Assembly (NCBI RefSeq): GCF_022179465.1
Contig: NZ_BPQV01000008.1
Span: 186,001 to 250,000 of the forward strand
Source: Methylobacterium organophilum
Lineage (GTDB): Bacteria; Pseudomonadota; Alphaproteobacteria; Rhizobiales; Beijerinckiaceae
Reading direction: 5' to 3'
Length of the DNA stretch: 64,000 bases
The position numbers and the translations under genes are program-made. Position 1 is the first letter of the stretch, and every line of letters begins with the position of its first letter. Shown in pieces: positions 23,510 through 38,048 of the stretch. The notes beneath the pieces were generated by a model, which did not search any database, had not been told where the DNA came from, and worked only from the letters and a program-made list of their open reading frames with translations.

Positions 23510-23525
23510 AGCAGCCCTCTCCCTA

Positions 23526-24479
23526 TCACACTTTTATGGCTGTCCACTCTTCCGGCACACGAGATACTCTTCCTGAACGACCTGGTTCATATATGGGTTT
23601 TCCTAAAGGCCTTAAACGAAGCTCACCTCGCTCCAGAGCAGTAAGCCGTTGGTTTGATAACTGGATGAACTCAGCATCGTGATCAATGCCAACACCACGT
23701 CGCCCACATTTGGTGGCGGCTATAATACTAGCTCCAGTTCCAACGAACGGATCCAAAATAAGATCATCTTGTTTTGTAAACGCAAGCACACACCGCTCAG
23801 CCAACTCCACCGGAAATTGGCATGGATGCAAAGTTTTTTCCACATGGTTTGCTTTTACATTTGGGATCTCCCAGATCGGATTCTCTAAAAAATCTTTTTT
23901 TGGAGAAAATTCCCAAAAATCAGATGGATTCTTCCCAAGCGGGTTGCCGCTGGGCAATCCAGCCTTACCCTCACCTTTCCTTGATGAATTACGTTTGCCT
24001 GGATAAATCTGAGGCACACGGACATCATCAAGATTGAATACGTATTTATCGGACTTGGTGAACCACAATAAAGTCTCGTATCTTCCTGAGAATCTATGCA
24101 CGGCATTTCGACCGAAATTGAAACGCCAAATAATTCTGTTTCTGAGCTTTAATCCAAATTTTCTAAAAATGTCATAAAACATGCAATCTAGAGGTATCAC
24201 CTCTTGATTTTTATTTGTCCAATTTCCGACCTGCCAGCACAAACTTCCATCTTCAGCAAGCATGGAAACGAGAGTTTCAGCGATTTTGGACTGCCAATCA
24301 ATATACTCCTCAACAGATCTTCTGCTATCCCTTTCGTAAGACTTTCCTATATTGTATGGCGGAGATGTTATAATTAAATTGAAAGGTATTCCCTCTACTT
24401 GCTTAAGTCCACGAAGCACATCAGCATGAATTAGCCTAAAACGCTCCTCGCTTGACGCGAGCTTGAACGGAGCACCCAC
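23526..24479 (-). CDS. Site-specific DNA methyltransferase (N4-cytosine or N6-adenine)
   Basis: A 317-residue amino-methyltransferase. Catalytic motif IV TSPPYN (38-43) precedes the SAM-binding motif I DPFVGTG (243-249), the beta-class order. SPPY is commoner in N4-cytosine enzymes, but N6-adenine enzymes also carry it. Other conserved parts are IIWRFNFGRNAVHRFSGRYE and HPCQFPVELAERCV. The target-recognition region is probably around residues 150-220. The GTG at 24479 follows a GGGGG site. It is the first gene of a two-gene operon with the DGQHR protein; no classical restriction endonuclease is seen nearby. Strongly AT-rich. Confidence 0.88.
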   Translation of the reverse strand: MGAPFKLASSEERFRLIHADVLRGLKQVEGIPFNLIITSPPYNIGKSYERDSRRSVEEYIDWQSKIAETLVSMLAEDGSLCWQVGNWTNKNQEVIPLDCMFYDIFRKFGLKLRNRIIWRFNFGRNAVHRFSGRYETLLWFTKSDKYVFNLDDVRVPQIYPGKRNSSRKGEGKAGLPSGNPLGKNPSDFWEFSPKKDFLENPIWEIPNVKANHVEKTLHPCQFPVELAERCVLAFTKQDDLILDPFVGTGASIIAATKCGRRGVGIDHDAEFIQLSNQRLTALERGELRLRPLGKPIYEPGRSGRVSRVPEEWTAIKV

Positions 24480-24984
24480 GATACCCCCAGAAATTGCCCA
24501 TCATTTTTGATTCGTGACATAATTTCATACCGGAAAACAGCGGACACGCTACCTCTGAAAAGTGATCCACACCTGTTTGAGGCCACAAGTCCATCCCCCT
24601 TCTATCGACAGCATATTCTAGAACGGGAAACGTAGCAACAGCGCCGCTTAATCCCAATTGAATTTTGCGAGCAGGAACCAGATCTGAAATCATTTGAAAA
24701 ATAGCCATAAATATATTTGTTTATTTGGCAAGGTTTTTACTATTATGGAAATAGTTGTCTAAGATATTTATTTATTTTGATTTATAATTGGCACACATTC
24801 TACTTAATCGCGATAAGACATTAATTGATATTTACAGAAATTGTGAGCTAATTTTTCGCCACTTGATTCGACCTTATCCAAAAGCTCGTTCTCATCCGGT
24901 TTTGTTGCCGCCGAACTGGAAGCTCTGCGCGCACTTCCCCAGATACCCCCATACACCGCCTAAACTCCTCAGGATGGAGCCGCC
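24480..24984. promoter_or_regulatory. AT-rich leader upstream of the methyltransferase operon
   Basis: About 500 bases with no convincing gene. The part from 24700 to 24880 is very AT-rich and probably contains the promoter of the minus-strand methyltransferase operon. A 90-codon minus-strand frame (24436-24708) overlaps the methyltransferase start; it has no recognisable domain and no helix-turn-helix, so it is not called. GC rises again from about 24890. Confidence 0.4.
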
Positions 24985-26106
24985 ATGTCCGCCCCGCGCC
25001 TGTTCGAGCCCCTGCGGCTCGACGATCTCGTGCTCGAGAACCGCATCCTCGTCGCGCCGATGTGCCAGTACTCCGCCCGGGACGGGGCGGCGACCGATTG
25101 GCATGTGATGCATCTCGGCCAGCTCGCCGCCTCGGGGGCCGGGCTCCTGACCCTGGAGGCGACGGCGATCAGCCCCGAGGCGCGCATCACCGCCTGGGAT
25201 CTCGGCCTCTACGACGACGCCACCGAGCGGGCGCTCGCCCGGGTGCTCGGCGCGGTGCGGGAATACGCGCCCGTGCCCGTCGCCCTCCAGATCGCCCATG
25301 CCGGGCGCAAGGCCTCGAGCCGGGCCCCCTGGGACGGGGGCGCGCAGATCCCGCCCGAGCATCCCCAGGGCTGGCGCACGGAGGCGCCCTCGGCGATCCC
25401 CCACGGGGCGGGCGAGGTGGCCCCGCACGCCCTCGACCTCTCCGACCTCAAGCGCATCCGCGACGGCTTCGTCGCCACCGCCCGGCGGGCGATGCGCCTC
25501 GGGATCGACGGGGTGGAGCTGCACGGGGCCCATGGCTACCTGCTGCACCAATTCCTCTCGCCGCTCGCCAACACCCGCGGCGACGCCTATGGCGGCGCCC
25601 TGGAGAACCGGATGCGCTTCCCCCTCGAATGCTTCGAGGCGGTGCGCGACGCGGTGCCGGCGGGACGCCCGGTCTGGATGCGCGTCTCGGCCACGGACTG
25701 GGTCGAGGGCGGCTGGGACCTCGAGGGCACCCTCGCCCTGGCCGAGGCCCTGAAGGCCCGGGGCGCCGCGGCGATCCACGTCTCCTCCGGCGGCCTCTCG
25801 ACGGCGCAGACAATCCCCGTGGGGCCGGGCTACCAGGTGCCCTTCGCGGCGCGCATCAAGGCCGAGACCGGGCTTCCCACCATCGCCGTGGGCCTGATCA
25901 CGCAACCCGCCCAGGCCGAGGCGATCCTGCAGAACGGCCAGGCGGATGCGGTCTCCCTCGCCCGCGCCCTGCTCTACGACCTGCGCTGGCCCTGGCACGC
26001 GGCGGCCGAACTCGGGGCGCAGGTGCGCGCGCCCAAGCAATACTGGCGCTCCCAGCCGCACGGCCTGAAGCACCTCTTCACCGACAGCGCCTTCGGCCAG
26101 CGCTGA
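24985..26106 (+). CDS. namA: NADPH:flavin oxidoreductase of the Old Yellow Enzyme family (NamA/YqjM type)
   Basis: A 373-residue FMN TIM-barrel ene-reductase that reduces activated C=C bonds (enones, nitro compounds) with NADPH. Marks: LENRILVAPMCQYSA (the MCQYS Cys is the YqjM-type flavin modulator), QIAHAGRKAS, HGAHGYLLHQFLSPLAN with the substrate His pair, NTRGDAYGGALENRMRFPLE (20 shown) and the C-terminal KQYWRS. The ATG follows AGGATGGAG. It is the first host-like gene after the AT-rich island. Physiological substrate unknown. Confidence 0.9.
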   Translation: MSAPRLFEPLRLDDLVLENRILVAPMCQYSARDGAATDWHVMHLGQLAASGAGLLTLEATAISPEARITAWDLGLYDDATERALARVLGAVREYAPVPVALQIAHAGRKASSRAPWDGGAQIPPEHPQGWRTEAPSAIPHGAGEVAPHALDLSDLKRIRDGFVATARRAMRLGIDGVELHGAHGYLLHQFLSPLANTRGDAYGGALENRMRFPLECFEAVRDAVPAGRPVWMRVSATDWVEGGWDLEGTLALAEALKARGAAAIHVSSGGLSTAQTIPVGPGYQVPFAARIKAETGLPTIAVGLITQPAQAEAILQNGQADAVSLARALLYDLRWPWHAAAELGAQVRAPKQYWRSQPHGLKHLFTDSAFGQR

Positions 26107-26249
26107 CGGGAGGCCCCCGGCGGGCGATCCGTCCCTTGCCGGCGCCGGGCACACGGGCTACCACGAACCCGGTTCCCGTCGCCGTTTCCGTCGCCGACCT
26201 CGCCGCCGACCCCCGGTCTCGGCGCCAAGGCCTTGAGAAGGAACCCAAA

Positions 26250-26322
26250 GGGCCTGTAGCTCAATGGTTAGAGCCGACCGCTCATAACGGTCTGGTTGCA
26301 GGTTCGAGTCCTGCCGGGCCCA
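26250..26322 (+). tRNA. tRNA-Ile2 (CAU anticodon, expected lysidine-modified)
   Basis: A complete cloverleaf: seven-pair acceptor stem (GGGCCTG with CGGGCCC, one G-T pair), D arm TAGCTCAATGGTTAGAGC, anticodon stem GACCG/CGGTC around loop CTCATAA, and T arm GCAGG TTCGAGT CCTGC. CCA is encoded at 26323-26325. The sequence resembles alphaproteobacterial tRNA-Ile2, which reads AUA after TilS changes C34 to lysidine, rather than elongator Met or initiator tRNA (no 1-72 mismatch). Confidence 0.9.
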
Positions 26323-26325
26323 CCA

Positions 26326-26771
26326 TCTCCCTGCCAAGTCGCTGCGAACGCTCAACGCGCATCGACAATCCGGCTTGAAGCTGGGTGTGATGGAACTGGG
26401 AGACGGGCGGAGGACTCGCTCGGCGAAGACTCTTCCGCCCGCAGGCCGCAGCGTCGCATCGAACACGTCCCATGACAGCATGAAGCTCGACCCGCCGATC
26501 AGTGGGCCGCACGCTCACTGGAGCGGTGAGCGTCCGATCAGCGCTTTTCACAGACGCGCCCGGGAACCGGCAAAGCGGGCGCCCCCAGGCCCGCAACAAC
26601 CTCTAGTACAAAAGAATTCGCCCCAACTATTTGTTATAAAAATGTCATAATTTACCCGCTCTTAGGCTTGTCCGAGCCTCGCCGAGACGTAAAAATATTT
26701 TGATCGATAGATGAGAGGTTTGCGCTTATACACGCATTTGCGTGCCAAATCGCTCTCTATTAGGACTTAGT
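26326..26771. other. Intergenic region after the tRNA gene
   Basis: About 450 bases without a supported gene. No repeat of the tRNA 3' end was seen that would mark an integration event. The last 150 bases are AT-rich (around 26600-26740) and probably carry the promoter of the exoD-led cassette. Confidence 0.4.
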
Positions 26772-27443
26772 ATGGGGCCAGCACTTGCAACTGCTGATTT
26801 TGCACCGCCGGCTCTGCGTACGGCTTCATCGCGTAGCCCCGTTCAGGCGAGCGAGCTGACGAAGCTTTTCGAGGCCGTCCTGCGCCGGGGCGATTTGGAA
26901 ACCCTCACGGTCCGCGAGTTGCTCGGTGGGCTGGAGACATCTGCCTTCGGGATTCCCCTTGCCGCCCTGGCCGTTCCCGAGATTATCCCGGTCCCGATTC
27001 CCGGCCTGTCCCTCGTCATCGCCATTCCCACCGCGATGATAGGCGCTCAGATGGTCACCGCCCGAGACCGCGTCTGGCTGCCGGAATCGCTTCTCGACAG
27101 GCGTATCCAGGCTAAGCCGCTCAAGCGCGCGGTGAGGGCCATGCTGCCGCTGCTTCGCAGGATCGACGGCTTCACGCGACCGCGGGGCGCGATCTTCCAC
27201 GGCAAGGCCGGCCAGCGCATGGTGGGTGTCGCCGTCATCATCTTAGCGCTGCTGATCGCCCTGCCGATTCCCGGCACGAACGCGCCCTTGTCGCTCACGG
27301 TCTTCATCCTGGCGATCGGCCTGATCCGGCGGGATGGGCTGCTGATTGCCGCCGGATTGCTTCTTACCGCCGCCTCGGCCGCCCTGATAGCCGGCGCGGC
27401 TCTCGCGCTCACGGAATGGCTCTTCGGAGCCCTCCTCGCCTGA
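26772..27443 (+). CDS. exoD: ExoD family membrane protein
   Basis: A 223-residue inner-membrane protein of the ExoD family, originally linked to exopolysaccharide production and alkali tolerance in rhizobia. Marks are LTVRELLGGLETSAFGIPLAALAVPEIIPVPIPGLSLV (shown in pieces; residues about 45-82), ITAMIGAQM-like segment and RRDGLLIAAG. Four hydrophobic segments can be drawn (about 60-90, 155-175, 177-195, 197-220). The ATG at 26772 follows TTAGGAC; a GTG at 26742 is the alternative. First gene of the metal/membrane cassette. Confidence 0.85.
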   Translation: MGPALATADFAPPALRTASSRSPVQASELTKLFEAVLRRGDLETLTVRELLGGLETSAFGIPLAALAVPEIIPVPIPGLSLVIAIPTAMIGAQMVTARDRVWLPESLLDRRIQAKPLKRAVRAMLPLLRRIDGFTRPRGAIFHGKAGQRMVGVAVIILALLIALPIPGTNAPLSLTVFILAIGLIRRDGLLIAAGLLLTAASAALIAGAALALTEWLFGALLA

Positions 27444-27486
27444 GCGATGTCGCTCGGGACCTCCACCACCTGGGATAGGACCACTG

Positions 27487-27924
27487 ATGAGTTCGTCGAC
27501 TGCCACCGCCGAGGACCCCTTCACGATTCTCGGGGAGACGCTCGAGACTGCTGCCGGCGCCCTCGACGCTCCGACCGTCCATGCGCGCGAATCCGCGCAC
27601 CGAGCCGCAGCGACGACCAAGCGGGTCGTGGGCTCGGGCGTGTATTCGGTCAGCTACGCCCTCGCTTATGGCGCGGTCTTCGCCGCCACTTACGTGCATG
27701 ACCTGTTGCCGGAAGGCAGTGCGGTCCAGCGCGGCCTGTCCGACGGCAGCGATGATGCCCTCTCGTCCCGCTCTCGCCGCCACCTGCTGAAGCAGGCGCC
27801 GACGAGCACGCTTGCTCCGCGCGCGGACGTCCATGCCGGGCACGAGGCGCACGATCACCCCGTGCACAGCGACACCCGGCAGCATGTCGATGCTCTCGCG
27901 GGCAAGTTCGACGGAGAACACTGA
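27487..27924 (+). CDS. Small protein with a membrane-like segment and a His-rich tail, 145 residues
   Basis: No family recognised. The ATG follows GGATAGGA. Residues 1-45 are soluble. A Tyr/Ala/Val-rich hydrophobic segment (VYSVSYALAYGAVFAATYV, about 53-71) could cross or lie on the membrane. The C-terminal third is rich in His (VHAGHEAHDHPVHSD about 114-128), which suggests divalent-metal binding. It sits between exoD and a P-type ATPase. Mycobacterial P1B-ATPases CtpC/CtpG/CtpV are paired with small membrane-anchored PacL metal-binding proteins; this protein may be a functional analogue, but homology is not shown. Confidence 0.65.
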   Translation: MSSSTATAEDPFTILGETLETAAGALDAPTVHARESAHRAAATTKRVVGSGVYSVSYALAYGAVFAATYVHDLLPEGSAVQRGLSDGSDDALSSRSRRHLLKQAPTSTLAPRADVHAGHEAHDHPVHSDTRQHVDALAGKFDGEH

Positions 27925-27985
27925 ACGCATCGCCCGCGAAGGGACGCGAAGTTCAGAACGAAAAATCATTTCCTATCAGTGCGTT

Positions 27986-28024
27986 GCAGCCACACCCGAT
28001 CGTGCTGTGATCGGGCGTGGCTGC
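27986..28024. repeat. Near-perfect 16-bp inverted repeat before the P-type ATPase
   Basis: Arms 27986-28001 and 28009-28024 match over 16 bases with one A/G difference and enclose the loop GTGCTGT. The right arm is followed by AAAAA, not T, so it is not a classic terminator for the plus strand. It ends 29 bases before the ATPase ATG, where it could be an operator or an RNA hairpin controlling translation. Confidence 0.7.
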
Positions 28025-28053
28025 AAAAACACCCAACGAAGCGGTCCGACACG

Positions 28054-30513
28054 ATGTCCTCCCTCTTCACGAGCTCTCTCGCGGATCCGGGAGCCGTCTG
28101 CTTCTCGGTCCGGGTCGTCGGGCCGGACCGGTTCGTTGTGGGGGGAGGCCAGTGGTTCTCCTCGGCCAGCCGCCTGGCCGAGTTTCTGCGCGTGACGCTG
28201 GCCGCGCCATCGGTCCGGTCGGTCACGATCGACCGGCAGCGCCATGAGGTGGATGTCCGGCACGAGCCGGGCGCCCGGAGGAAGGTGGTCGCCACCTACC
28301 GCGCGCGGCCTGCGGACCTGCCCGAACTCGACGTCGACCTTGAGGATGCGGAAGCCGCGCCCCATCGCCGGACCTCGTTCTTCCGCTACGGCCGCCTCAT
28401 CAGCGACTGGATCCGCCAGGATGAAAAGCCCGGCCTCCTTCGGCTGCGTCATCCGGGCCTGCGGTGTCGTCCGGCGGCCTGGGACAGGGTGTCCAAGGCG
28501 CTGGATGATTTGCTCGGGATCGTCGCCTTTCGCGTGGACGGGCTTGGTGGAAGCCTGACCATCCGGTTCGACCCGGCGCTGATCCATGCGCAGCAAATCG
28601 TGCACGGGTTGCACCGGGCGGTTCAAGACAAGAGCAGAGACGCCGTCCGCCCCATCCTGCATCGGCTCGATCTGCCGGTCGCCACCGCTTCGCTCGCGCT
28701 CTCGGGGGGAGCGACCTTCGTAGCCCCCGCCCTCCTGCCGGTCGGCACCGCCCTCATGCTCGCCACGGCCGTGCCGAGCTACCACAGGGCGATCCAGGTC
28801 TTGGTCCAGGAGCGGCGCTTGGGCGTCGACGTCCTCGACAGCATCATCTTCACCACCTGCCTGTTCACCGGCGAGATCTTTGCCGGTGCGATGACTTCCT
28901 TCTTCCTGAGCGTCGGGCGGACCCTGCTGCGCAAGACCCAGGCACAGTCGGCGCGGCTCCTCGTCGACGCCTTGGGCCGACAGCCCAGCATCGTGCGCCT
29001 CGAACGGGCGGACGGCTCGACGGCCGAGGTGCGGATCGAGGACGTGAAGGCGGGCGACGTGGTCGTCGTCCATACCGGCGAGGCGGTTCCCGTCGATGGG
29101 GTCGTCCAGTCCGGCGAGGGCATGCTGGACCAGCAGGCCCTGACCGGCGAGGCGGCGCCCGTCGAGCGCGCCGCCGAAGATTCCGTACTCGCCGCGACCC
29201 TGCTGGTCGCCGGCCAGATCCGGGTGCGGGTCGAGCGGGCAGGCAAGGACACCACGGCTGGCAAGATCGCCGACATTCTCCGCGAGACCGTCTCGCACAA
29301 GCTGAAACTCCAGTCGCGCGGCGAGTCCCTGGCCGATTCGATCGTGGTGCCGGCGCTCGGCGTTTCGGCGCTCGCCGGGGCGATGATCGGGCCGAGCGCG
29401 GCGCTCGCTGTCATCAATTCGGATCTCGGCACCGGCATCCGCATGGCGGCGCCCCTCGCCGTCGTGACTTCGCTCTCGGCCTGCATCCGCTCCGGCATCC
29501 TGGTGAAGCAGGGCCGCGCCCTGGAGACCCTGCCGCAGATCGATACGGTGGTGTTCGACAAGACCGGGACGCTCACCCGCTCGGTGCCCGAGGTCGGGGA
29601 GGTGGTGTCCTGCGGCGCCCACGCGCCCACCGAGATGCTGCGTCTCGCGGCCGCGGCCGAACAGAACTTCTCGCACCCGATCGCGCGGGCCATCGTCGAT
29701 CGCTACCAGGCCACGGACGGTGCGCCTCTGCCGGTGCTCGATGCCTCGCAATACGCCCTTGGCTTCGGCCTCACGGTGATCATCGAGGGCCGTCGCGTCC
29801 GGCTTGGCAGCCGCCGCTTCATGGACCGGGAGGGCCTCGTCTTCCCGGAATCCTTCGATCACGCCATGGCGCCTCGGCGCGATGCCGGTCACACCTTGAT
29901 CTATATGGGCCTCGACGATGAGCCCGCCGGCCTCATCGACCTGCGTCCGTCGCAGCGTCCCGAGGCGGCGGATGCCGTGGAGAGCCTGCGCGCGGGAGGT
30001 ATCAAGGAACTCATCATCCTGTCGGGGGACCATGACAGGCCGACGCGTCAGCTCGCCAACCAGCTCGGAATGGAGCGTTACTTCGCCGAGGTCCTTCCGG
30101 AGGACAAGGCGGCGGTGATCGCCGGACTCCAGCGGGAGGGACGCCGCGTCTGCTTCGTCGGGGACGGCATCAACGACGCCCTCGCCCTTCGCCAAGCCGA
30201 CGTCTCGGTCTCCCTCAGCGGCGCGGCGGGGATCGCCACCGACACCGCGCAGGTGGTCTTCCTGGAGGGCAACCTGCGCCGGATGGGAGAGATGTTCTCG
30301 ATCGCCCGCGAGCTGCACACGAATGTCGGTCAGAGCTGGAACCTGATCCGGGGCGCCAACGGCATCTGCATCGCCGGCGTGTTCCTGGCCGGTTTCAATA
30401 TCTGGCACTCGGTGTTCTTCAACAACGCCTCAGCGCTCGGCGCCCTCGGCAACTCCCTGCGGCCGCTTCAGCGCCGGGCGGGCGCAGCGGGAGTGATGAA
30501 CCTGCTTCGATAA
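28054..30513 (+). CDS. P1B-like P-type ATPase lacking the canonical CPx motif
   Basis: An 820-residue metal-transporter-like ATPase with intact catalysis: TGE in the actuator domain (364-366), DKTGTLT with phospho-Asp502, SHPIARAI in the nucleotide domain and GDGINDA (703-709). In the helix where P1B pumps carry CPC/SPC there is NSDLGTG (455-461), so the metal-coordinating Cys are absent. Two degenerate HMA-like domains (about 15-90 and 130-195) have no CxxC. The start is taken as the ATG at 28054; an in-frame GTG at 27979 would translate through the inverted repeat. Substrate unknown. Part of the exoD cassette. Confidence 0.88.
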   Translation: MSSLFTSSLADPGAVCFSVRVVGPDRFVVGGGQWFSSASRLAEFLRVTLAAPSVRSVTIDRQRHEVDVRHEPGARRKVVATYRARPADLPELDVDLEDAEAAPHRRTSFFRYGRLISDWIRQDEKPGLLRLRHPGLRCRPAAWDRVSKALDDLLGIVAFRVDGLGGSLTIRFDPALIHAQQIVHGLHRAVQDKSRDAVRPILHRLDLPVATASLALSGGATFVAPALLPVGTALMLATAVPSYHRAIQVLVQERRLGVDVLDSIIFTTCLFTGEIFAGAMTSFFLSVGRTLLRKTQAQSARLLVDALGRQPSIVRLERADGSTAEVRIEDVKAGDVVVVHTGEAVPVDGVVQSGEGMLDQQALTGEAAPVERAAEDSVLAATLLVAGQIRVRVERAGKDTTAGKIADILRETVSHKLKLQSRGESLADSIVVPALGVSALAGAMIGPSAALAVINSDLGTGIRMAAPLAVVTSLSACIRSGILVKQGRALETLPQIDTVVFDKTGTLTRSVPEVGEVVSCGAHAPTEMLRLAAAAEQNFSHPIARAIVDRYQATDGAPLPVLDASQYALGFGLTVIIEGRRVRLGSRRFMDREGLVFPESFDHAMAPRRDAGHTLIYMGLDDEPAGLIDLRPSQRPEAADAVESLRAGGIKELIILSGDHDRPTRQLANQLGMERYFAEVLPEDKAAVIAGLQREGRRVCFVGDGINDALALRQADVSVSLSGAAGIATDTAQVVFLEGNLRRMGEMFSIARELHTNVGQSWNLIRGANGICIAGVFLAGFNIWHSVFFNNASALGALGNSLRPLQRRAGAAGVMNLLR

Positions 30514-30561
30514 TGCCCCTGCCGGGGCAGACATCCCTTTACCCGAGAGGACCGACGCGTC

Positions 30562-31440
30562 GTGATCCTGACCTTCGCCCGCGGCGAGACTTGTCTGCAG
30601 CCCCTCGATCACTTTTCGGAGGAGAAGAGGCGTCAGCGACTCGCTCAATCCCTTTGGGTCGATCTCTTGGCCGCCACTCCGGAGGAGAGGGCCCTCGTCT
30701 CGTCGGTGCTGAACGTCGAGCTGTTCAGCCCGGACGAGTTGCACGAGATCGAGGAATCGAGCCGCATCTTCGTGGAGCAGGATGACCTCAACCTGATCTG
30801 CTGGCTGCCGTCCTTCGAGGGTGACGTGGCGGTGAATTTGCCCGTTGGCCTGATCGCCGACCACGAGCGCCTGATCAGCATGCGGCAGGGGAATTTCCCA
30901 GCCTTCCGCAGCTATGCCGAGCCGCGTCGGCGCAGCGGCCTGCCCCGGGTCAACAACTCGGCCGACATGCTCGTCGAGCTCTTCGACACCATCGTCGGCC
31001 AGCTCGCGAGCACCCTGCGGACGGTCGAACAGGACCTCAACGCCCTGACGACCGAGATCTTTTCCGATACGGCGCATCCCCGCAACGGCTTCGCCCGGCC
31101 CATGGGCCTCCGTGGCAAGACCAGCTTCCGGGACCTGAAGGGCATCGTGCAGCGTCTCGGCCGGCGCAACGCGCTGGTCGCCAATCTGCGCGATTCCGCG
31201 GTGACGCTGTCGACACTCATCCCGTTCATCATCGCGAACGGGCGGCACTGGGCCGGCCCCGACACGGTGGCCCAGCTTAAGCTCATCGGCAAGGATATCA
31301 CCTCCCTGCGTGAGTATTGCGGGCAGCTCTCTGCAGAGGTGTCGTTCTTGCTCGACTCGACGATGGGCCTCATCAACATCGACGAGAACCAGAGCATGAA
31401 ATTTCTCGGCTTGGCCGCCCTCGTCGTCGCCTTCATCTGA
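30562..31440 (+). CDS. CorA-like protein ending before the GMN motif (truncated)
   Basis: A 292-residue protein whose cytoplasmic funnel matches CorA Mg2+/divalent channels: an alpha/beta N-terminal domain, then long helices with SFRDLKGIVQRLGRRNALVA and LLDSTMGLINIDENQSMKFLG. In CorA this last segment leads into TM1 and the GMN-loop. Here it stops ten residues into TM1 (LAALVVAFI-stop), so GMN and TM2 are missing. The reading frames just after the stop contain no lost transmembrane or GMN segment, so it is a clean end, not a simple frameshift. GTG start after GAGAGGA. The next gene's ATG begins one base after the stop. Confidence 0.8.
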   Translation: MILTFARGETCLQPLDHFSEEKRRQRLAQSLWVDLLAATPEERALVSSVLNVELFSPDELHEIEESSRIFVEQDDLNLICWLPSFEGDVAVNLPVGLIADHERLISMRQGNFPAFRSYAEPRRRSGLPRVNNSADMLVELFDTIVGQLASTLRTVEQDLNALTTEIFSDTAHPRNGFARPMGLRGKTSFRDLKGIVQRLGRRNALVANLRDSAVTLSTLIPFIIANGRHWAGPDTVAQLKLIGKDITSLREYCGQLSAEVSFLLDSTMGLINIDENQSMKFLGLAALVVAFI

Positions 31441-31441
31441 G

Positions 31442-33289
31442 ATGACGACCGCCGTGCCGACGACTTGGCCGACCCGCGGCGCCCCCGCCGTCGCCCCGCT
31501 CTCTGTCCGCGTGGCGGGGGCCAGCCTCATCCTGACCGGGCCGCTCACGGGCCGCCTCGCCTGTGGCCCGGCCCTGCCAAACTTCCTGAACCGCTGCCTT
31601 CGGATCGAGCGGCTGGAGGGGCTGCGCTTCGATCTCACGGCGGCGCGGATCGAATTGCGGTTCTCCGGTCCGGTCGCAGCCTCGGGCGAGGACATGCACC
31701 ATCTTGCCCGGATCATGCGGGAGGCCGGCCAACGGGAGAGCCTGCGCAGCGCGGCCTTCCTCCGGCACGTCTCGGAGCGCATCTGGGAAGAGCCTGTCAC
31801 CCTGTGGCGGTCTGGCCCATCGCTCTCGACGTGGCGCGTGCATCATCTTGGCAGCGGCCGGGTCCGGTTGAGCCACGGGGTGCTGCGCGACCGGACTGCG
31901 CTTGCGATCGTCGCGAGCTTCCTCAAACGGCGCGGCGCCGTGATCGCAGTGGACCGGCACTCGGCCACGCGTGGCTTCCTCGACCTGCGCTGCGACCCGA
32001 GCGGCCTTCCCCACCTCGTGGCGGAGGCCGAGTCGATCGAGGCCATCCTGCGGCGGCGCGTGGTCACGCCCTTCTCCAACCCGGAGGTCAAGGGCCTGCT
32101 CATCAACGCCAATCTCGCTTTCGCCATCGGGGCGGCAATGGTCCCGGCGCTTATGCCGATCAGTGCCGTGGTACTGGCGGCGGCCTCCTGGCCGACGGCG
32201 CGCCAGGCTCTCCGGCAGCTCAGGCAGCGGAGGGCAGACGCGACAGCAATCCTGACGATCCTGTCTGCGCTCGCCCTCATCAACGGCGATCACCTGCCCG
32301 CCGCGCTGATGTTGTGGCTATTCCGGGTCTGGGACAAGTTGACCCGCCGCAACCTGTGCCGGACGGAGGTCGCCCTGTTCGAGCGCCTCGCCGTCGCCTT
32401 GGGCGGGGACCGGACCGCCCTCCGGGGAGCGGCCGAAGCGGCAGTGACGGTTTTCTCCGAAGCGCCGCGGTCCAAGGCGGCCACGGCCTTTGCGGATGCG
32501 AGCACTCCGCTGATGCTGTGCGTCGGCGCCTCGGCCGCATTCTCGGGGGGTGCGCCGTTGGCACAGGCGGTGCTGCGGCCGGATTTCTTTAGCCCGGTGC
32601 TGGTGCATCGGCGCATCGCCGCGGCCGAGATCGTTCTACGCCTGGCCGATCAGGGCATCGTGGTGCGCAACTTCCGTGCGCTTCTCGAGATTCGCGAGGC
32701 CGACGAGATCCTGCTCGACGACGGGGTGGAGTGGGACACGTCCGGCCTCGGCCCCGGCGAGTTCGGACAGCGCATGGCCAAACTCGGACTGCGCGAGACC
32801 GTCCTCTTCCGCCCGGCGCGGGACGAGGGGCGGGACGACCTCGCCATACGCATCGGCGCCTCGCGCCACTTCGTCCGCAGCGCGGTGCACACGCCCGCGA
32901 GCTATCTCGCCCAGCAGCGACTTCTCGGTCACCGGGTCATCCATTTGCATGCCGTGCACGGGGCCGAGCCCCATGCCAAGTCCGACGTGCCCATCGCGGT
33001 CGGTCCGGCCGCTCTCGCCGACAGCAAGGCGCAGATCGGCCTGCCGGGACCGGACCTCGCCCGGCTCTGCGAGATCGTCGCCTTCGTGCGACGGACGGAG
33101 GGCGAGGAGACGTCGGTCAAGTCGATGACCGTCGCCCTCAACACTGTGCTGATCGGCGCCTGCGTCTATGCCGGCCTGTCGGCCATCGGGGTCGTCGCCG
33201 TCGGGACCCTGGCAACGGCAGGACTATGGCTGGGTCTCGAAAGGCGCCTGGGACGGGTCATGACCCGTCGCCCGGGAGGCAGGATTTGA
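31442..33289 (+). CDS. Degenerate P-type ATPase homologue (pseudo-ATPase)
   Basis: A 615-residue membrane protein that parallels the active ATPase two genes upstream: two N-terminal HMA-like domains without CxxC, helices around 225-260 and 285-310, a helix pair leading to RNFRALLEIREADEILLDD, which lines up with KQGRALETLPQIDTVVFDK, and a C-terminal helix pair. The DKTG of the active enzyme is replaced by DDGV (from Asp426), the TGE actuator domain is reduced to about 30 residues, and GDGIND is replaced by a GAEPHAKSD segment. It cannot be a normal pump. The ATG is coupled to the truncated CorA. Likely a regulatory or structural partner; not a decayed gene, since the frame is intact. Confidence 0.75.
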   Translation: MTTAVPTTWPTRGAPAVAPLSVRVAGASLILTGPLTGRLACGPALPNFLNRCLRIERLEGLRFDLTAARIELRFSGPVAASGEDMHHLARIMREAGQRESLRSAAFLRHVSERIWEEPVTLWRSGPSLSTWRVHHLGSGRVRLSHGVLRDRTALAIVASFLKRRGAVIAVDRHSATRGFLDLRCDPSGLPHLVAEAESIEAILRRRVVTPFSNPEVKGLLINANLAFAIGAAMVPALMPISAVVLAAASWPTARQALRQLRQRRADATAILTILSALALINGDHLPAALMLWLFRVWDKLTRRNLCRTEVALFERLAVALGGDRTALRGAAEAAVTVFSEAPRSKAATAFADASTPLMLCVGASAAFSGGAPLAQAVLRPDFFSPVLVHRRIAAAEIVLRLADQGIVVRNFRALLEIREADEILLDDGVEWDTSGLGPGEFGQRMAKLGLRETVLFRPARDEGRDDLAIRIGASRHFVRSAVHTPASYLAQQRLLGHRVIHLHAVHGAEPHAKSDVPIAVGPAALADSKAQIGLPGPDLARLCEIVAFVRRTEGEETSVKSMTVALNTVLIGACVYAGLSAIGVVAVGTLATAGLWLGLERRLGRVMTRRPGGRI

Positions 33290-33624
33290 GCCGGGAAATT
33301 CTGTGCCGCCTGCCTGTCGCATGGCCGGTTGGTTGTGACCGACGTGCCCTCATCGACGCCCGGCTCGCCCCGCATACCGCCTCATGGGAGGAGCGGCTTT
33401 CGCACGTCCTCATACCCGGGCGACCCGCGGCCACCTGGCTCTCGGATCGGGTACTCGAGGTCCGCGCCGCAAAAGTGACGTTCTGGGCGGTGCTGACAGA
33501 GAAGGAAGTCACCGTGTTTTGGGATGCCCCGCTGGCCATTCGCATGATTATGACACCGAGCAGGCGTGAGGCGATCATCGAAGCGTTGAAAACTGATATG
33601 GGCGCCCTGCCCGCCAGCGCATGA
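33286..33624 (+). CDS. Small hypothetical protein, 112 residues, TTG start overlapping the upstream stop
   Basis: The frame overlaps the pseudo-ATPase stop: TTG at 33286-33288 and TGA at 33287-33289, with GGGAGGCAGGA just upstream, a strong site. The protein (SREILCRLPVAWPVGCDRR at the start, then RLSHVLIPGRPAATWLSDRVL and KVTFWAVLTEKEVTVFWD) has a compact alpha/beta look and no recognised family. The translational coupling suggests that it works with the pseudo-ATPase. Last gene of the cassette. Confidence 0.6.
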   Translation: MSREILCRLPVAWPVGCDRRALIDARLAPHTASWEERLSHVLIPGRPAATWLSDRVLEVRAAKVTFWAVLTEKEVTVFWDAPLAIRMIMTPSRREAIIEALKTDMGALPASA

Positions 33625-34053
33625 TCATCTGTCCGACCGTGAATGACGCGTGCGTGACCCTGCGATGGGCGCCATGCGACCGCCGCGTCACCGCTCTTGA
33701 ATTCGACCCGGCTTGCGGTCCACGGCCCATGCCAGTTCCCGGGCTGTGACAGACGGGTTGGCGAAGGCTCGAAGCGCCAAGCCGCCCAGGGCCGTATGCG
33801 ATCGATCCTCGTTGTCATGGCACCTCCCGTCCTCGAGGCGCTCGCAGGCATCGGTCAGCGACACGAGCCGAACCTGCTTGACGAGAGTCCCTCAACGGAT
33901 GCGGCGTCCTGAGGGGCTATCATCGGCCATCTGCTCGAAGGCAAAATAAATTATTGCAAATCATTCTATAGATAAAATTGAAAATTTTCCCGTCGATGAA
34001 GACGACATCTGAATATATACATCATCCAATATTTTTATTTTTCTCAATTCCGC
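33625..34053. other. Intergenic region with AT-rich end
   Basis: About 430 bases between a plus-strand cassette and a minus-strand operon that converge here. GC-rich with no supported gene up to 33935, then strongly AT-rich (33940-34050), which would suit transcription termination for both units. No clear hairpin was identified. Confidence 0.35.
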
Positions 34054-35436
34054 CTAAGTCGATTCGCCCTTTCGATCACCAAAAGCCCCGCGATAGCGCG
34101 CGGCCGGGTGGCGTGCGTTGAGGCGCGGGCCGCGCCCGGGAAAGAGGCGCTCGCGGTAAGTGCCGGGGCCGTACTCGGTCTGAGCCAAGCCACGGGCCTG
34201 CAGCACCGGCACGACGTGTTCGATGAAGTCGACGAACGAGCCCGGCGTCGTCTGATAGATGACGTTGACCCCATCGATGCCCGCCGCCTGCCAGCGGGCG
34301 AGATCGTCGGCGATGCTCTCTGGCGTGCCGACGATGCGGGTGTTGTAGGCATAGGCATTGCCGAGATCGGCCACCGTCGCCCGCTTGCCGGGATTGGCCT
34401 CCTCGAAGAAGCGCACCAGCCCCTGGACGCCCTGAATGTCGAGTTCGTCGACCGGCTTGTCGGGCGGCAGCAGCCCGAGATCGATGCCGAGGTCGCGGCT
34501 GATATGGGCGAGCAGGCCGTCGGTGCTGCGATACGCGTCGAGGTCGCGCGCCTTGCGCTGCGCCTCCGCCTCGGTGCTGCCGACGACGAAGGACAGGCCC
34601 TGGATGAACAGGAGGTCGCTCGGGTCGCGCCCGGCGGCGGCGACCTGGGCGCGCATCTCCTGCACCAGCCGCCGCGCACCCTCCGGCGTGAGGCTGGCGA
34701 TGAAGGTGCCCTCGGCGTTGCGCGCGGCGAAGGCGCGGCCCGCCTGGGACGAGCCGGCCTGGAACAGCACCGGCGTGCGCTGGCGCGAGGGCTGCGACAG
34801 GTGCGGGCCGAGCACCCGGTAGCGCGCGCTCTCATGGTGGATGCGGTGAACCCGGCTCGGATCGGCGTAGCGGCCGCCCTTCCTGTCGTTGAGCACCGCA
34901 TCGTCGTCCCAGGAGCCCTCCCAGAGCTTGTAGGCGACGTCGACATATTCGTCGGCCCAGCGGTAGCGCTCGTCATGCGGGACGATGCGGTCGAAGCCGT
35001 AATTCTGCGCCGCGTTGTGGCTGACGCTGGTGACGATGTTCCAGCCGATGCGGCCGCGGCTGAGATGGTCGAGGGTCGAGACCTTGTGGGCGAAGTTGAA
35101 CGGGTGCTCCTGAAGGATCGAGCTGGTGAAGGTCAGCCCGAGATGCTCCGTCGCCCCGATCAGGGCGGCGATGAGAGCGCCGGAATCGTTGATCGGGATC
35201 TGCACCGCCTCTTCGAGATAGGTGTCCCAGCTGCCCTTGTAGGCCGGATCGACGCCGATCACGTCGGCCACGAACAAGGCGTCGAAGCGGCCCTTCTCCA
35301 GGAGCTTGGCGAGTTCGACCCAAGGAGCGAGATCGTTGAACGCGGTCTGGCGCGTGTCCTCGCGGCGCCAGAGGCCGTGATAGACGTGGGAGACGGCGTT
35401 CATCGAGAAGCCGTTGAGGATGAGGCGCTTGGTCAT
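34054..35436 (-). CDS. NtaA/SnaA/DmoA-type FMN-dependent monooxygenase
   Basis: A 460-residue luciferase-like monooxygenase. Marks: MTKRLILNGFSMNAVSHVYHGLW at the start (first 20: MTKRLILNGFSMNAVSHVYH), RFDALFVADVIGVD, FTSSILQEHPFNFAHKVSTLDH, GRIGWNIVTS and PVLFQAGSSQAGRAFAARNAE. It needs reduced FMN from an unseen reductase. The ATG at 35436 follows TGAGG and is 11 bases after the permease stop, so it is cotranscribed with the RbsABC-type transporter and should act on the imported compound. By family, C-S or C-N bond cleavage is likely. Confidence 0.88.
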   Translation of the reverse strand: MTKRLILNGFSMNAVSHVYHGLWRREDTRQTAFNDLAPWVELAKLLEKGRFDALFVADVIGVDPAYKGSWDTYLEEAVQIPINDSGALIAALIGATEHLGLTFTSSILQEHPFNFAHKVSTLDHLSRGRIGWNIVTSVSHNAAQNYGFDRIVPHDERYRWADEYVDVAYKLWEGSWDDDAVLNDRKGGRYADPSRVHRIHHESARYRVLGPHLSQPSRQRTPVLFQAGSSQAGRAFAARNAEGTFIASLTPEGARRLVQEMRAQVAAAGRDPSDLLFIQGLSFVVGSTEAEAQRKARDLDAYRSTDGLLAHISRDLGIDLGLLPPDKPVDELDIQGVQGLVRFFEEANPGKRATVADLGNAYAYNTRIVGTPESIADDLARWQAAGIDGVNVIYQTTPGSFVDFIEHVVPVLQARGLAQTEYGPGTYRERLFPGRGPRLNARHPAARYRGAFGDRKGEST

Positions 35437-35447
35437 GGCGGGTCGCC

Positions 35448-36446
35448 TCACTTCACGAGGGCGGCCAGGGAGCGCTCGCGGCTCACCAGCACCGCGGCGA
35501 TGACGACAGCGCCCTTCACGACCATCTGCGAATACTGGCTCACCCCCATCAGGTTGAGGCCGTTGTCGATGATGGTGATGATGAGCACGCCGATCAGGGT
35601 GCGGTGCGGGCCGCCGACGCCCCCCGCCAGCGAGGTGCCGCCGACCACGATCGCCGCGAGACTGCTCAGCAGCAGATCCTGCCCGACCGAGGGACCGGCG
35701 GCGCCGAGGCGGGCCACGATCAGGATCGCGCCGATGCCGGTGAGCAGGCCCGCCAGGGCGAAGGCGTAGATCTTGTAGCGCCGCACCGGGATGCCGGCAA
35801 TGCGCGCCACCGTCTCGCCGCCGCCGATCAGGGCCATGTAGCGGCCGAAGCGCGTGCGGTTCGCGACCAGGACCGCGCCGCCCCAGGCGAGCAGCGCGCA
35901 CAGGGCGATGTTGGGCAGGCGCGGGACGAGCTGGCCGATGGCGATCTCCTCGAAACCCGGCAGATCGAACTGGATGGCGCGGCCCTGGAGGATCTGCAGG
36001 GCAAGCCCGCTGAAGATCGACAACGTGCCGAGGGTCACGACGAAGGACGGAACCCGGCCGACCGCGTAGACGAGGCCGTTGACGAGGCCGAGACCCGCGC
36101 CGATGGCGGCGGCGACGAAGAAGATCCCGCCGCCGATCTCGGTGTGGTTGAGGATCTGCACGCTGGCGGCGGCGACGAACAGCACGATCGCGCCGACCGA
36201 AAGGTCGATGCTGCCCATCAGGATGATGAAGCTGCCCCCGAGGCAGACGATCAGCAGGGCGCCGGCCTGACCACTCAGCGCGGTGAAGTTGCGCCAGGTC
36301 GCGAAGGATTCGGTCGCGAGGGAGAAGAAAGTCACGAGCAGCACGACCACGGCGATCGGCAGCCCCACGCTCCTGTCGACCTTTGGAAGGGACAGCCACC
36401 TCCGGGACGCGGGCGCAGTCAGACGGACGGTCTCGGCGGTCATCAT
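35448..36446 (-). CDS. RbsC-type ABC transporter permease
   Basis: A 332-residue permease of the carbohydrate-uptake class 2 (RbsC/BPD_transp_2) family with about eight to ten helices. Marks are GGSFIILMGSIDLSVGAIV, near the N-terminal third, and SLAAIVVGGTSLAGGVGGPHRTLIG near residue 265, the family's cytoplasmic EAA-like loop. Two ATGs (36446, 36443) are possible. It lies between the ATPase and the flavin monooxygenase; probably forms a homodimer channel with the RbsA-like ATPase. Confidence 0.9.
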   Translation of the reverse strand: MMTAETVRLTAPASRRWLSLPKVDRSVGLPIAVVVLLVTFFSLATESFATWRNFTALSGQAGALLIVCLGGSFIILMGSIDLSVGAIVLFVAAASVQILNHTEIGGGIFFVAAAIGAGLGLVNGLVYAVGRVPSFVVTLGTLSIFSGLALQILQGRAIQFDLPGFEEIAIGQLVPRLPNIALCALLAWGGAVLVANRTRFGRYMALIGGGETVARIAGIPVRRYKIYAFALAGLLTGIGAILIVARLGAAGPSVGQDLLLSSLAAIVVGGTSLAGGVGGPHRTLIGVLIITIIDNGLNLMGVSQYSQMVVKGAVVIAAVLVSRERSLAALVK

Positions 36447-36467
36447 GGGTCTCCGGATCAGCCGGTG

Positions 36468-38048
36468 TCAGGCGGCGAAGGCGGGCGCGTCGCCGCTCTG
36501 CGGCAGCATCAGCGCGACGAGATCCTGCTCCCGGGGCTTGGCCTCGGCCGGGGCCGGCAGGTCGGCGACGAGCCGCCCGCGCTGCAGGATCAGGATGCGG
36601 TTCGACAGCCCGATCAGTTCGAGCAGTTCGTCGGTGATCAGCACGATCCCGACACCGCGCTCGGCGAGATCCCGGATCAGCCGGTAGATCTCCTCCTTGG
36701 CGCCGGCATCGACGCCGCGGGTCGGATTGTCGAGCACCAGCACCTTGAGGGAGCGGCAGAGCCAGCGGGCGAGCACGACCTTCTGCTGGTTGCCGCCGGA
36801 GAGGCTCGCGGTCCTGGCATCCGGCGTGGCGGAGCGGATGGCGAGGCCGCGCACATGCCGCTGCGCCGTCTCCACCTCCCGGCGGCGCCGCCACCAGCCG
36901 AGGGCATTGGCGAAGAGATCGCCCCCGCTCGCGAGCGAGATGTTCCAGGCCACGCTCGCCGAGGGGATGATCCCCTCCACCAGCCGCTCCGCCGGGACGT
37001 AGCCGAGGCCGTCACGGACGAAGCGCCCGATCTCCGCCGCGCTGGCGGGCGCGTCCCCGAGCGCGACGGTGCCCGCATCGGCCGAATCGATACCGGCGAT
37101 CGCCTTGCCAAGCGCACCCTTCCCGGAATCGAGCAGGCCGCCGATGCCGACGACCTCGCCCGGGCGGACCCGCAGGTCGATGGGCGCGAAGGCGCCGGCC
37201 CGTTCGAGCGCCCGCACCGTGAGAACCGGCTTCTCCGCCTCCGAAACCACCCGCTGGCGGTGCTCGTGATAATAGTCGGCCACCCGCGCCCGCCCGACCA
37301 TCAGGCTGTGCAGTTCGGCCTCGCTCGTCGCGCGGGGATCGCGTTTCGCCACCAGCTTCCCGTCCTTGAGGACGTAGATGATGTCGGAGACGCCGAGCAC
37401 CTCGGTCAGCCGGTGGGACACGAAGAGCAGCGAGCCGCGCTTCCGGACGCGATCGACGAGGCGGAAGAACGCCTCCTCGTCGCGGCGGTCGAGGGCGGAG
37501 GTCGGCTCGTCGAGGAGGACCAGGGGCGTCTCGACCCCGCCGAGAAGACGGCCCGCCAAGCAGGCCCGCGCGATCTCGATCGACTGGCGCTTCGAGAAAT
37601 CGTAGGCGCCGGTGCGGCGGCGGACATCGATGTCGAGATCCGCCTCCTCGGCGATCCGTTCGGCCGCGGCGATCATCGCGCCCCGGTCGAGGAATTGGCC
37701 GGCCCGTGCGAAGCCCGCCTCCCAACCGAGGAGCAGGTTCTCGTAGACCGGCACGTTGAGGACGAGCGACTGCTCCTGGAACACGCGGGATACGCCGAGC
37801 CGGGCGGCCCGGCCGTAATCCCGCGGTGCGTAGGGGAGGCCGGCGAGGCGCATCGTCCCGTGCTGGGCGGCGGTGATCCCGCTCAGGATGTTGAACAGCG
37901 TCGACTTGCCGGCGCCGTTCTCGCCCACGAAGGTCACGACCGCGTTGCGCGGGATATCGAATTCGATGCCGTCGAGCACCGGAACGGGCCCGTAGCGCAT
38001 GGAAAGCCCCCGAGCCTCGAACAGCGGCCCGGCGCGTCGATCGTTCAT
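36468..38048 (-). CDS. RbsA-type ABC transporter ATP-binding protein (two NBDs)
   Basis: A 526-residue tandem ATPase. The first NBD has a full Walker A (GENGAGKST) and VLLDEPTSALD, with a weak signature (YDFSKRQSIEIARA). The second has the degenerate Walker A (GLLDSGKGALG) usual for this family, with a perfect LSGGNQQKVVLARWL signature and VLDNPTRGVD. This pattern defines the ribose/galactoside CUT2 class. It energises the adjacent permease. The 21 bases between the two genes fit an operon. Confidence 0.92.
   Translation of the reverse strand: MNDRRAGPLFEARGLSMRYGPVPVLDGIEFDIPRNAVVTFVGENGAGKSTLFNILSGITAAQHGTMRLAGLPYAPRDYGRAARLGVSRVFQEQSLVLNVPVYENLLLGWEAGFARAGQFLDRGAMIAAAERIAEEADLDIDVRRRTGAYDFSKRQSIEIARACLAGRLLGGVETPLVLLDEPTSALDRRDEEAFFRLVDRVRKRGSLLFVSHRLTEVLGVSDIIYVLKDGKLVAKRDPRATSEAELHSLMVGRARVADYYHEHRQRVVSEAEKPVLTVRALERAGAFAPIDLRVRPGEVVGIGGLLDSGKGALGKAIAGIDSADAGTVALGDAPASAAEIGRFVRDGLGYVPAERLVEGIIPSASVAWNISLASGGDLFANALGWWRRRREVETAQRHVRGLAIRSATPDARTASLSGGNQQKVVLARWLCRSLKVLVLDNPTRGVDAGAKEEIYRLIRDLAERGVGIVLITDELLELIGLSNRILILQRGRLVADLPAPAEAKPREQDLVALMLPQSGDAPAFAA

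Follow-up and report, generated by a model that had tools for sequence, protein, structure and literature searches.

The 64,000-nucleotide stretch of Methylobacterium organophilum analyzed here (positions 186,001 to 250,000 of contig NZ_BPQV01000008.1, forward strand; hereafter the window) contains a cassette of six genes, all on the plus strand, which spans positions 26742-33624 and encodes both an active P1B-type ATPase and a catalytically dead paralogue of this ATPase (Table 1). An earlier note, made from the sequence letters alone, had singled out these two genes as a pair consisting of an intact and a degenerate P-type ATPase, and it is the origin and possible role of the degenerate member that concern us here.

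The active ATPase (819 residues), intact as the earlier note stated, contains the LTGEAAP, DKTGT, SHP and GDGIND motifs, scores 423 bits against TIGR01525 (cut-off 346) and matches copper and zinc ATPase structures in sequence searches. A CPC, SPC or TPC metal motif in the fourth transmembrane segment (TM4; the other segments are numbered likewise) is typical of P1B-type ATPases. In the window ATPase, TM4 reads NSDLGTGIRMAAP and the motif is absent (INSDLGTGIRMAAP), with DLGTGIR in its place. No CxxC is present either, the N-terminal region included, and TM6 carries FNN in Methylobacterium (FNV in two of the four genomes with the cassette) and FNQ in the second family described below, with no HN.

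The dead copy is a complete frame of 615 residues, in which the N-terminal domains and TM1-2 are followed by an actuator stub, TM3-TM4 (with RPD), a degenerate P domain (with DD) and TM5-6. The sequence LLDDGVEW stands at the position of DKTG, the actuator domain is reduced to about 30 residues (311-340) without TGE, and GDGxND is absent, so that the motif losses as well as the intact frame listed in the earlier note are all seen in the sequence. The common domain order of the two proteins holds as well. BLASTP of the active against the dead protein alone yields E 3e-7 over 207 aligned positions, with a second collinear high-scoring segment pair at 5e-5, and hhalign of a wider, eight-row dead profile (alignment A5) with a four-row active profile (A3) gives Prob 100 and E 3e-48 over 756 columns, compared with just Prob 87 and E 3.6e-6 over 163 columns (the N-terminal/TM1-2 part) for a Methylobacterium-only dead profile. 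The profile search that the note had proposed was straightforward for the active protein, through TIGR01525, and divided for the dead one: neither Pfam nor NCBIfam recognizes the Methylobacterium dead protein as a P-type ATPase, and a search of the PDB with the single dead sequence gives no match, whereas the eight-row dead profile matches P1B ATPase structures in the PDB, with a best E of 3e-19. As judged from these alignments, the dead gene is a P-type ATPase by descent, collinear with its active relative over the N-terminal domains, the membrane core and the P domain, and the prospect raised earlier that it would fall into an unrelated family did not materialize. The structure prediction suggested at the same time was obtained for the single dead chain and adds little: the AlphaFold model (three sequences) is poor (mean pLDDT, the predicted local distance difference test score, of 40), and we attach little weight to the agreement of its predicted order of secondary structures (two units of strand and helix at the N-terminus, then helices, then strands alternating with helices around DD, and two helices at the end) with the domain reading.

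To assess motif conservation, ten active and ten dead sequences were aligned with three outgroups in MAFFT. The pair of G429, which would have been the eleventh, was excluded: the genome is 88% complete and the frames of the pair are broken. All ten active rows keep TGE, DKTG, HP, GxG, (T/S)GD, PxxK and GDGxND. At the aligned positions of all ten dead rows, TGE, DKTG, HP, TGD and the ND of GDGxND are gone (a single dead copy, that of G135, does contain the letters TGE, at another place). All five second-family dead copies keep the GDG triplet and the lysine of PxxK, neither of which is found in the four from Methylobacterium. The first aspartate of DKTG is kept in 9 of the 10 dead rows, as DD or DE, the exception being the copy from the cyanobacterium Gloeothece. 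The TM4 aspartate, which aligns with the D of the active DLGTGIR, is kept in every dead row (IRPD, LRPD or LPLD), and RPD is present in all nine alphaproteobacterial dead copies. The dead protein has lost the motifs of phosphorylation, dephosphorylation and nucleotide binding and, as far as DKTG and TGE tell, does not qualify as a P-type ATPase enzyme.

A search with a fragment of the active gene, a query that also detects the dead gene, found both ATPase genes in 4 of the 112 Methylobacterium genomes and neither in the other 108; a dead-gene query on 60 Methylobacterium genomes returned the same four. The carriers besides the window genome are M. radiotolerans JCM 2831, where the pair resides on the 36 kb plasmid pMRAD05, M. 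phyllostachyos BL47 and Methylobacterium sp. J-026, and the cassette is syntenic among the four genomes. The dead genes of the other three share about 69% identity with that of the window; for the active gene this value is 84-85%, and for the CorA-like gene, located between the two, 79-84%. All four dead frames are open, and the ratio of nonsynonymous to synonymous substitution rates (dN/dS; Nei-Gojobori, six pairs) is 0.22-0.39 at dS of 0.36-0.98; the corresponding ratios are 0.11-0.19 for the active gene, 0.16-0.25 for the CorA-like gene and 0.20-0.43 for the gene of the small protein. Within the dead gene, with region limits that we drew ourselves, dN/dS is lowest in TM3 (0.13) and TM4 (0.09). 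The N-terminal domains have ratios of 0.36 and 0.30, TM1-2 has 0.23, the P-like part 0.27 and TM5-6 0.30. The dead gene is under purifying selection that peaks at TM3-TM4, and the preference of the earlier note for selection over decay is upheld.

In the order-wide sample of 397 genomes, a profile search found dead copies in five further genomes, all of one genus (g41) of a second family, and a protein search found these five and a sixth (7 of 397, this genome counted). The counts from genome searches are lower bounds because the profile search missed one genome (G324) that the protein search found. Both genes are present in 6 of the 13 genomes of genus g41 and neither in the other seven; over the whole second family the numbers are 6 of 18 and 12, with neither gene in any of the five genomes outside g41. 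One of the six carriers, G429, is the poor genome with broken frames mentioned above. The two genes lie within about 7 kb of each other in five carriers; in the sixth, G290, they are 1.36 Mb apart on one contig, both kept. As to the conservation side by side about which the earlier note had asked, the two genes are close neighbours in four Methylobacterium and five second-family genomes and far apart in G290. In the genomes searched, the dead copy was never found without the active paralogue. An ExoD relative (26-29% identity) and relatives of the small protein (38-43%) are encoded near the active ATPase in all six second-family genomes; the CorA-like gene (at E 1) and the 112-residue open reading frame (ORF) were not found in the second-family loci. 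Scans of genome contigs returned no locus when the query was the single protein and two when it was the alignment. Among 72,556 plasmids, the window dead protein matches one record, the active protein matches 424 (one at 80% coverage), and the second-family dead protein has no match at E 1e-50.

Outside Alphaproteobacteria, plasmid NC_014533 of Gloeothece verrucosa PCC 7822 encodes an active ATPase (TM4 LDFGTGIR), followed by three genes and a dead paralogue of 522 residues, annotated as "HMA2 domain-containing protein", which has FAAKSFF for DKTGT and IDNTTGDD for GDGIND. This cluster resembles the window cassette in that the active ATPase, the dead paralogue and a small protein are encoded close together; it differs in containing DUF1345 and no annotated ExoD, and its DUF5132 small protein shares no detectable homology with that of the window. 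PF19991 (HMA_2), which the Gloeothece and Deinococcus relatives carry, has no match in the window genome at E 0.01. In the phylogenetic tree, the Gloeothece dead protein joins the Gloeothece active one (support 100/98), apart from the alphaproteobacterial dead copies, and this placement does not move when either alphaproteobacterial dead group is left out. A single clade of all ten dead copies, i.e., the dead rows of the motif alignment, is rejected (p-AU, the p-value of the approximately unbiased test, 0.00036), and none of the dead lineages lies within the clade formed by the nine active genes from Alphaproteobacteria. When the Gloeothece dead protein is compared by hhalign with the dead profile from Methylobacterium, the result is non-significant (Prob 1.7), which fits separate origins and also the low power of this comparison. 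The loss of activity in Gloeothece is likely to be a separate event, which would make two origins. With 4 of 112 Methylobacterium genomes, 6 of 18 in the second family and one cyanobacterial plasmid, the dead copy is not the wreck confined to a single genome that the earlier note had considered, and we rejected the possibility of a pair that exists nowhere but in this genome.

The remaining genes of the cassette are listed in Table 1. The tight coupling reported earlier is confirmed for the dead gene, whose ATG is separated by one base from the stop codon of the preceding gene; the two ATPase genes do not adjoin each other, given the CorA-like gene between them that had gone unnoticed.

Table 1. 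Genes of the six-gene cassette in the Methylobacterium organophilum window
Feature	Position	Strand	Remarks
ExoD-family membrane protein	26742..27443	+	cassette gene 1; Pfam ExoD, E 9.8e-46
Small protein, putative platform/scaffold (role inferred)	27487..27924	+	GSGxYSxSYAxAYGxVFAATY segment
Active P1B-type ATPase	28054..30513	+	ATG at 28054, TAA ending at 30513; TIGR01525; Pfam E1-E2_ATPase and Hydrolase; all catalytic motifs
CorA-like cytoplasmic domain	30562..31440	+	Pfam CorA, E 3.3e-15, up to model position 243 of 292
Catalytically dead P-type ATPase paralogue	31442..33289	+	ATG at 31442, TGA at 33287-33289; homology, motif loss, dN/dS
112-residue ORF, family unknown	33286..33624	+	TTG start at 33286, inside the overlap with the dead-gene stop

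The CorA-like protein ends with MKFLGxAALxVAFx at one position in all four Methylobacterium genomes, near the start of TM1. It matches the PDB entry 5n77, ending 12 residues beyond the last aligned residue of that CorA chain; GMN is found in none of the four genomes and TM2 is absent. Thus, the protein resembles the CorA Mg2+ channel in its recognizable cytoplasmic domain and differs from it in stopping at the start of TM1, without GMN or TM2. Because of the cytoplasmic-domain match, the common end near TM1 and the missing GMN, we predict that it is a pore-less CorA, unless its membrane insertion is unusual. On pMRAD05 this gene is annotated as a divalent cation transporter even though it ends before the pore; the annotations there read "hypothetical protein" for the dead gene, "CorA family divalent cation transporter" and "heavy metal translocating P-type ATPase". 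The ExoD gene is syntenic in all three other Methylobacterium cassettes. The 112-residue ORF, with no Pfam match, has counterparts at 64-66% identity in loci L016 and L017 and at 71% in pMRAD05, where it is an annotated coding sequence.

The small protein contains the conserved segment given in Table 1 and, in this genome, a C-terminal tail rich in His, Asp and Glu. It is present in all four Methylobacterium cassettes and in 5 of the 297 genomes of an order sample (in which the inclusion of G417 and G429 is uncertain), and the ATPase pair is present in all five. Two different copies lie near the ATPases in five of the six second-family genomes (L018, L019, L021, L022, L037), in some loci on opposite strands, and G290 has two more copies distant from its ATPase. 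The AlphaFold model of the small protein (three sequences) consists of helices only and is poor (pLDDT 47).

Taking together the common descent of the two ATPases, the loss of the activity motifs, the purifying selection, the retained TM4 aspartate and the co-occurrence of the two genes, the data suggest that the dead copy has been kept by evolution as a needed partner of the live pump and is not a broken gene. On balance, we consider it probable, by a modest degree, that the dead protein serves a transition-metal P1B-type pump as a dedicated membrane subunit or gate without catalysis of its own, and that it shares a platform with the small protein and ExoD. The active and dead proteins would meet in the membrane, where the active ATPase would burn ATP and move a divalent transition metal (the metal and the direction of transport being our presumption), and the dead protein would supply its TM3-TM4 pair and its N-terminal domains, probably of ferredoxin-like fold, for docking, for metal sensing or as a gate. 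A membrane platform would be made up of ExoD and the small tailed protein and, in Methylobacterium, the pore-less CorA domain might allow Mg2+ or some other divalent ion to be sensed as well. A broader generalization, to which we attach distinctly less confidence and which is offered tentatively, is that some P-type ATPases form a heteromeric class whose members require a dead paralogue as their second subunit, with a second TM3-TM4 cation site or gate; such a class would have arisen at least twice in bacteria and would include a membrane platform and, in Methylobacterium, the pore-less CorA as an ion sensor.

Several observations weigh against a subunit role of the dead protein. The contact between the pump and its dead partner is something we infer. 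The pair is rare, being found in this genome only (1 of 398) in the phylum sample, and its co-occurrence in Methylobacterium may reflect the transfer of one linked cassette as a whole. In the class sample, a TM4-region query detected 2 of 289 genomes, namely this one and G1072, from another family of the class, whose P1B-type ATPase (L055, 8901-11141, minus strand) has a TM4 (TADFGASMR) similar to that of the active pump, and no dead copy was seen within the 19 kb searched there. Similarly, for an active relative with a similar TM4 in Deinococcus peraridilitoris, no dead copy was seen in the annotated 10 kb. Because these related active ATPases have no dead copy nearby, a dead partner is perhaps not needed in general. 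The Gloeothece case is a single record: the dead protein matches four of the 72,556 plasmids, at 80% coverage only itself, and the TM4 region matches two. Finally, the tree contains long branches and, according to a warning from the program, the two dead groups of Alphaproteobacteria may have been joined falsely, so that two origins are likely and not proven.

The same evidence can be read in other ways. The dead protein could be a negative regulator or decoy that, at low metal, titrates away either the active pump itself or the metal chaperone of this pump, as would befit a protein that is collinear with the pump through the N-terminal domains and TM1-TM4 and has lost the ATP-handling motifs. 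The present data do not separate inhibition from assistance; however, the dead copy occurs in every pump-bearing genome found, in the same tight cassette, which a stoichiometric subunit fits at least as well, and we regard a decoy as unlikely. We give slightly less credence still to an independent passive ion path, that is, a channel or metal-binding scaffold built on a P-type core, with the active ATPase a mere neighbour in the pathway. The concentration of constraint in TM3-TM4, the RPD of all nine alphaproteobacterial copies and the distance between the genes in G290 would agree with such a path, but not the failure to meet a dead copy without its active paralogue.

FezB is a P1B-6 ATPase, and the presence of Asp and the lack of CPC in TM4 of the active ATPase bring to mind a ferrosome-like iron-storage system, with the dead ATPase as an organelle protein. 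There is a precedent in Rhodopseudomonas palustris CGA009, where six fez genes are reported to give rise to ferrosomes (PMC11334425, PMC12016538). In the fez clusters as described there and in a further source, a putative metal transporter is grouped with other membrane proteins (PMC11334425, PMC12574912, PMC12016538), in which they resemble the window cassette; the available part of PMC12748827 does not mention fez genes. However, the HN motif in TM6 that PMC9374683 gives for P1B6 ATPases is replaced by FNN or FNQ in the active ATPases of both families, and there is no FezC-like (DUF4405) Pfam match among the cassette genes, which makes a ferrosome improbable. The second gene evolves fast (its identity is about 69%, that of the active gene 85%) and in Methylobacterium lacks the greater part of its actuator and N domains, which might suggest a decaying duplicate without function; this reading is barely credible in view of the four open frames at the dS given above, the overall and regional dN/dS (near 0.1 in TM3-TM4), by which we rejected decay with the caveat of a possible GC-rich coding artefact, and the position of the dead lineages outside the clade of active genes.

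Among known systems, the classical P1B pumps (TIGR01525/CopA/ZntA) are the closest, the active gene scoring above the curated cut-off with all catalytic motifs and the dead gene being a paralogue of the same family. The window pump is unlike them in having DLGTGIR and not CPC/SPC/TPC in TM4, in lacking CxxC and in the dead paralogue encoded alongside; to our knowledge, classical P1B pumps have no dead paralogue. A second parallel is PacL of Mycobacterium tuberculosis, a small membrane protein whose tail binds metal and which is reported to cluster P1B pumps (PMC9374683, PMC13043812). The small protein of the cassette likewise has an acidic, His-containing tail and is encoded beside a P1B ATPase, and by analogy with PacL, for which the platform has been demonstrated, it may serve as a platform here. 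Unlike PacL, it has no match to DUF1490 in Pfam at E 1, and no dead ATPase is described in the PacL-Ctp effluxosomes, the word "inactive" being absent from the accessible text of PMC9374683 and PMC13043812. By title and start of abstract, we found no paper on a bacterial pair of dead and active P-type ATPases, with most subscription journals outside the coverage of the search.

With regard to the surroundings of the cassette, a tRNA-Met gene (26250-26325, plus strand) lies about 420 bases upstream and might have served a mobile cassette as its point of insertion. In an Rfam scan of positions 24000-37000, no match other than a tRNA attained the gathering score of its family. Between 26200 and 34000, consensus scans found no terminator-like sites (3.9 expected) and one promoter-like site (0.7 expected from shuffles), on which we base no conclusion. 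Further upstream, at 21758-24479 on the minus strand, a 582-residue protein with weak DndB/DpdB similarity (PF14072, E 2.4e-4, under the family cut-off; PADLOC DpdB, 6.7e-6) is encoded next to an N6/N4 DNA methyltransferase, and the two are candidates for a pair with a role in defence or restriction-modification.

The usual view of P1B-type metal pumps is that the catalytic chain suffices by itself. If the dead paralogue is indeed a subunit of the active ATPase, some of these pumps would work as catalytic/non-catalytic pairs, like pseudoenzyme systems elsewhere. A dead pump has been kept together with a live one in two bacterial families and in one apparently independent cyanobacterial case, which suggests a function for proteins that are now annotated as "hypothetical" or "HMA2 domain-containing", and the location of the pair on pMRAD05 of M. 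radiotolerans JCM 2831 makes it genetically accessible.
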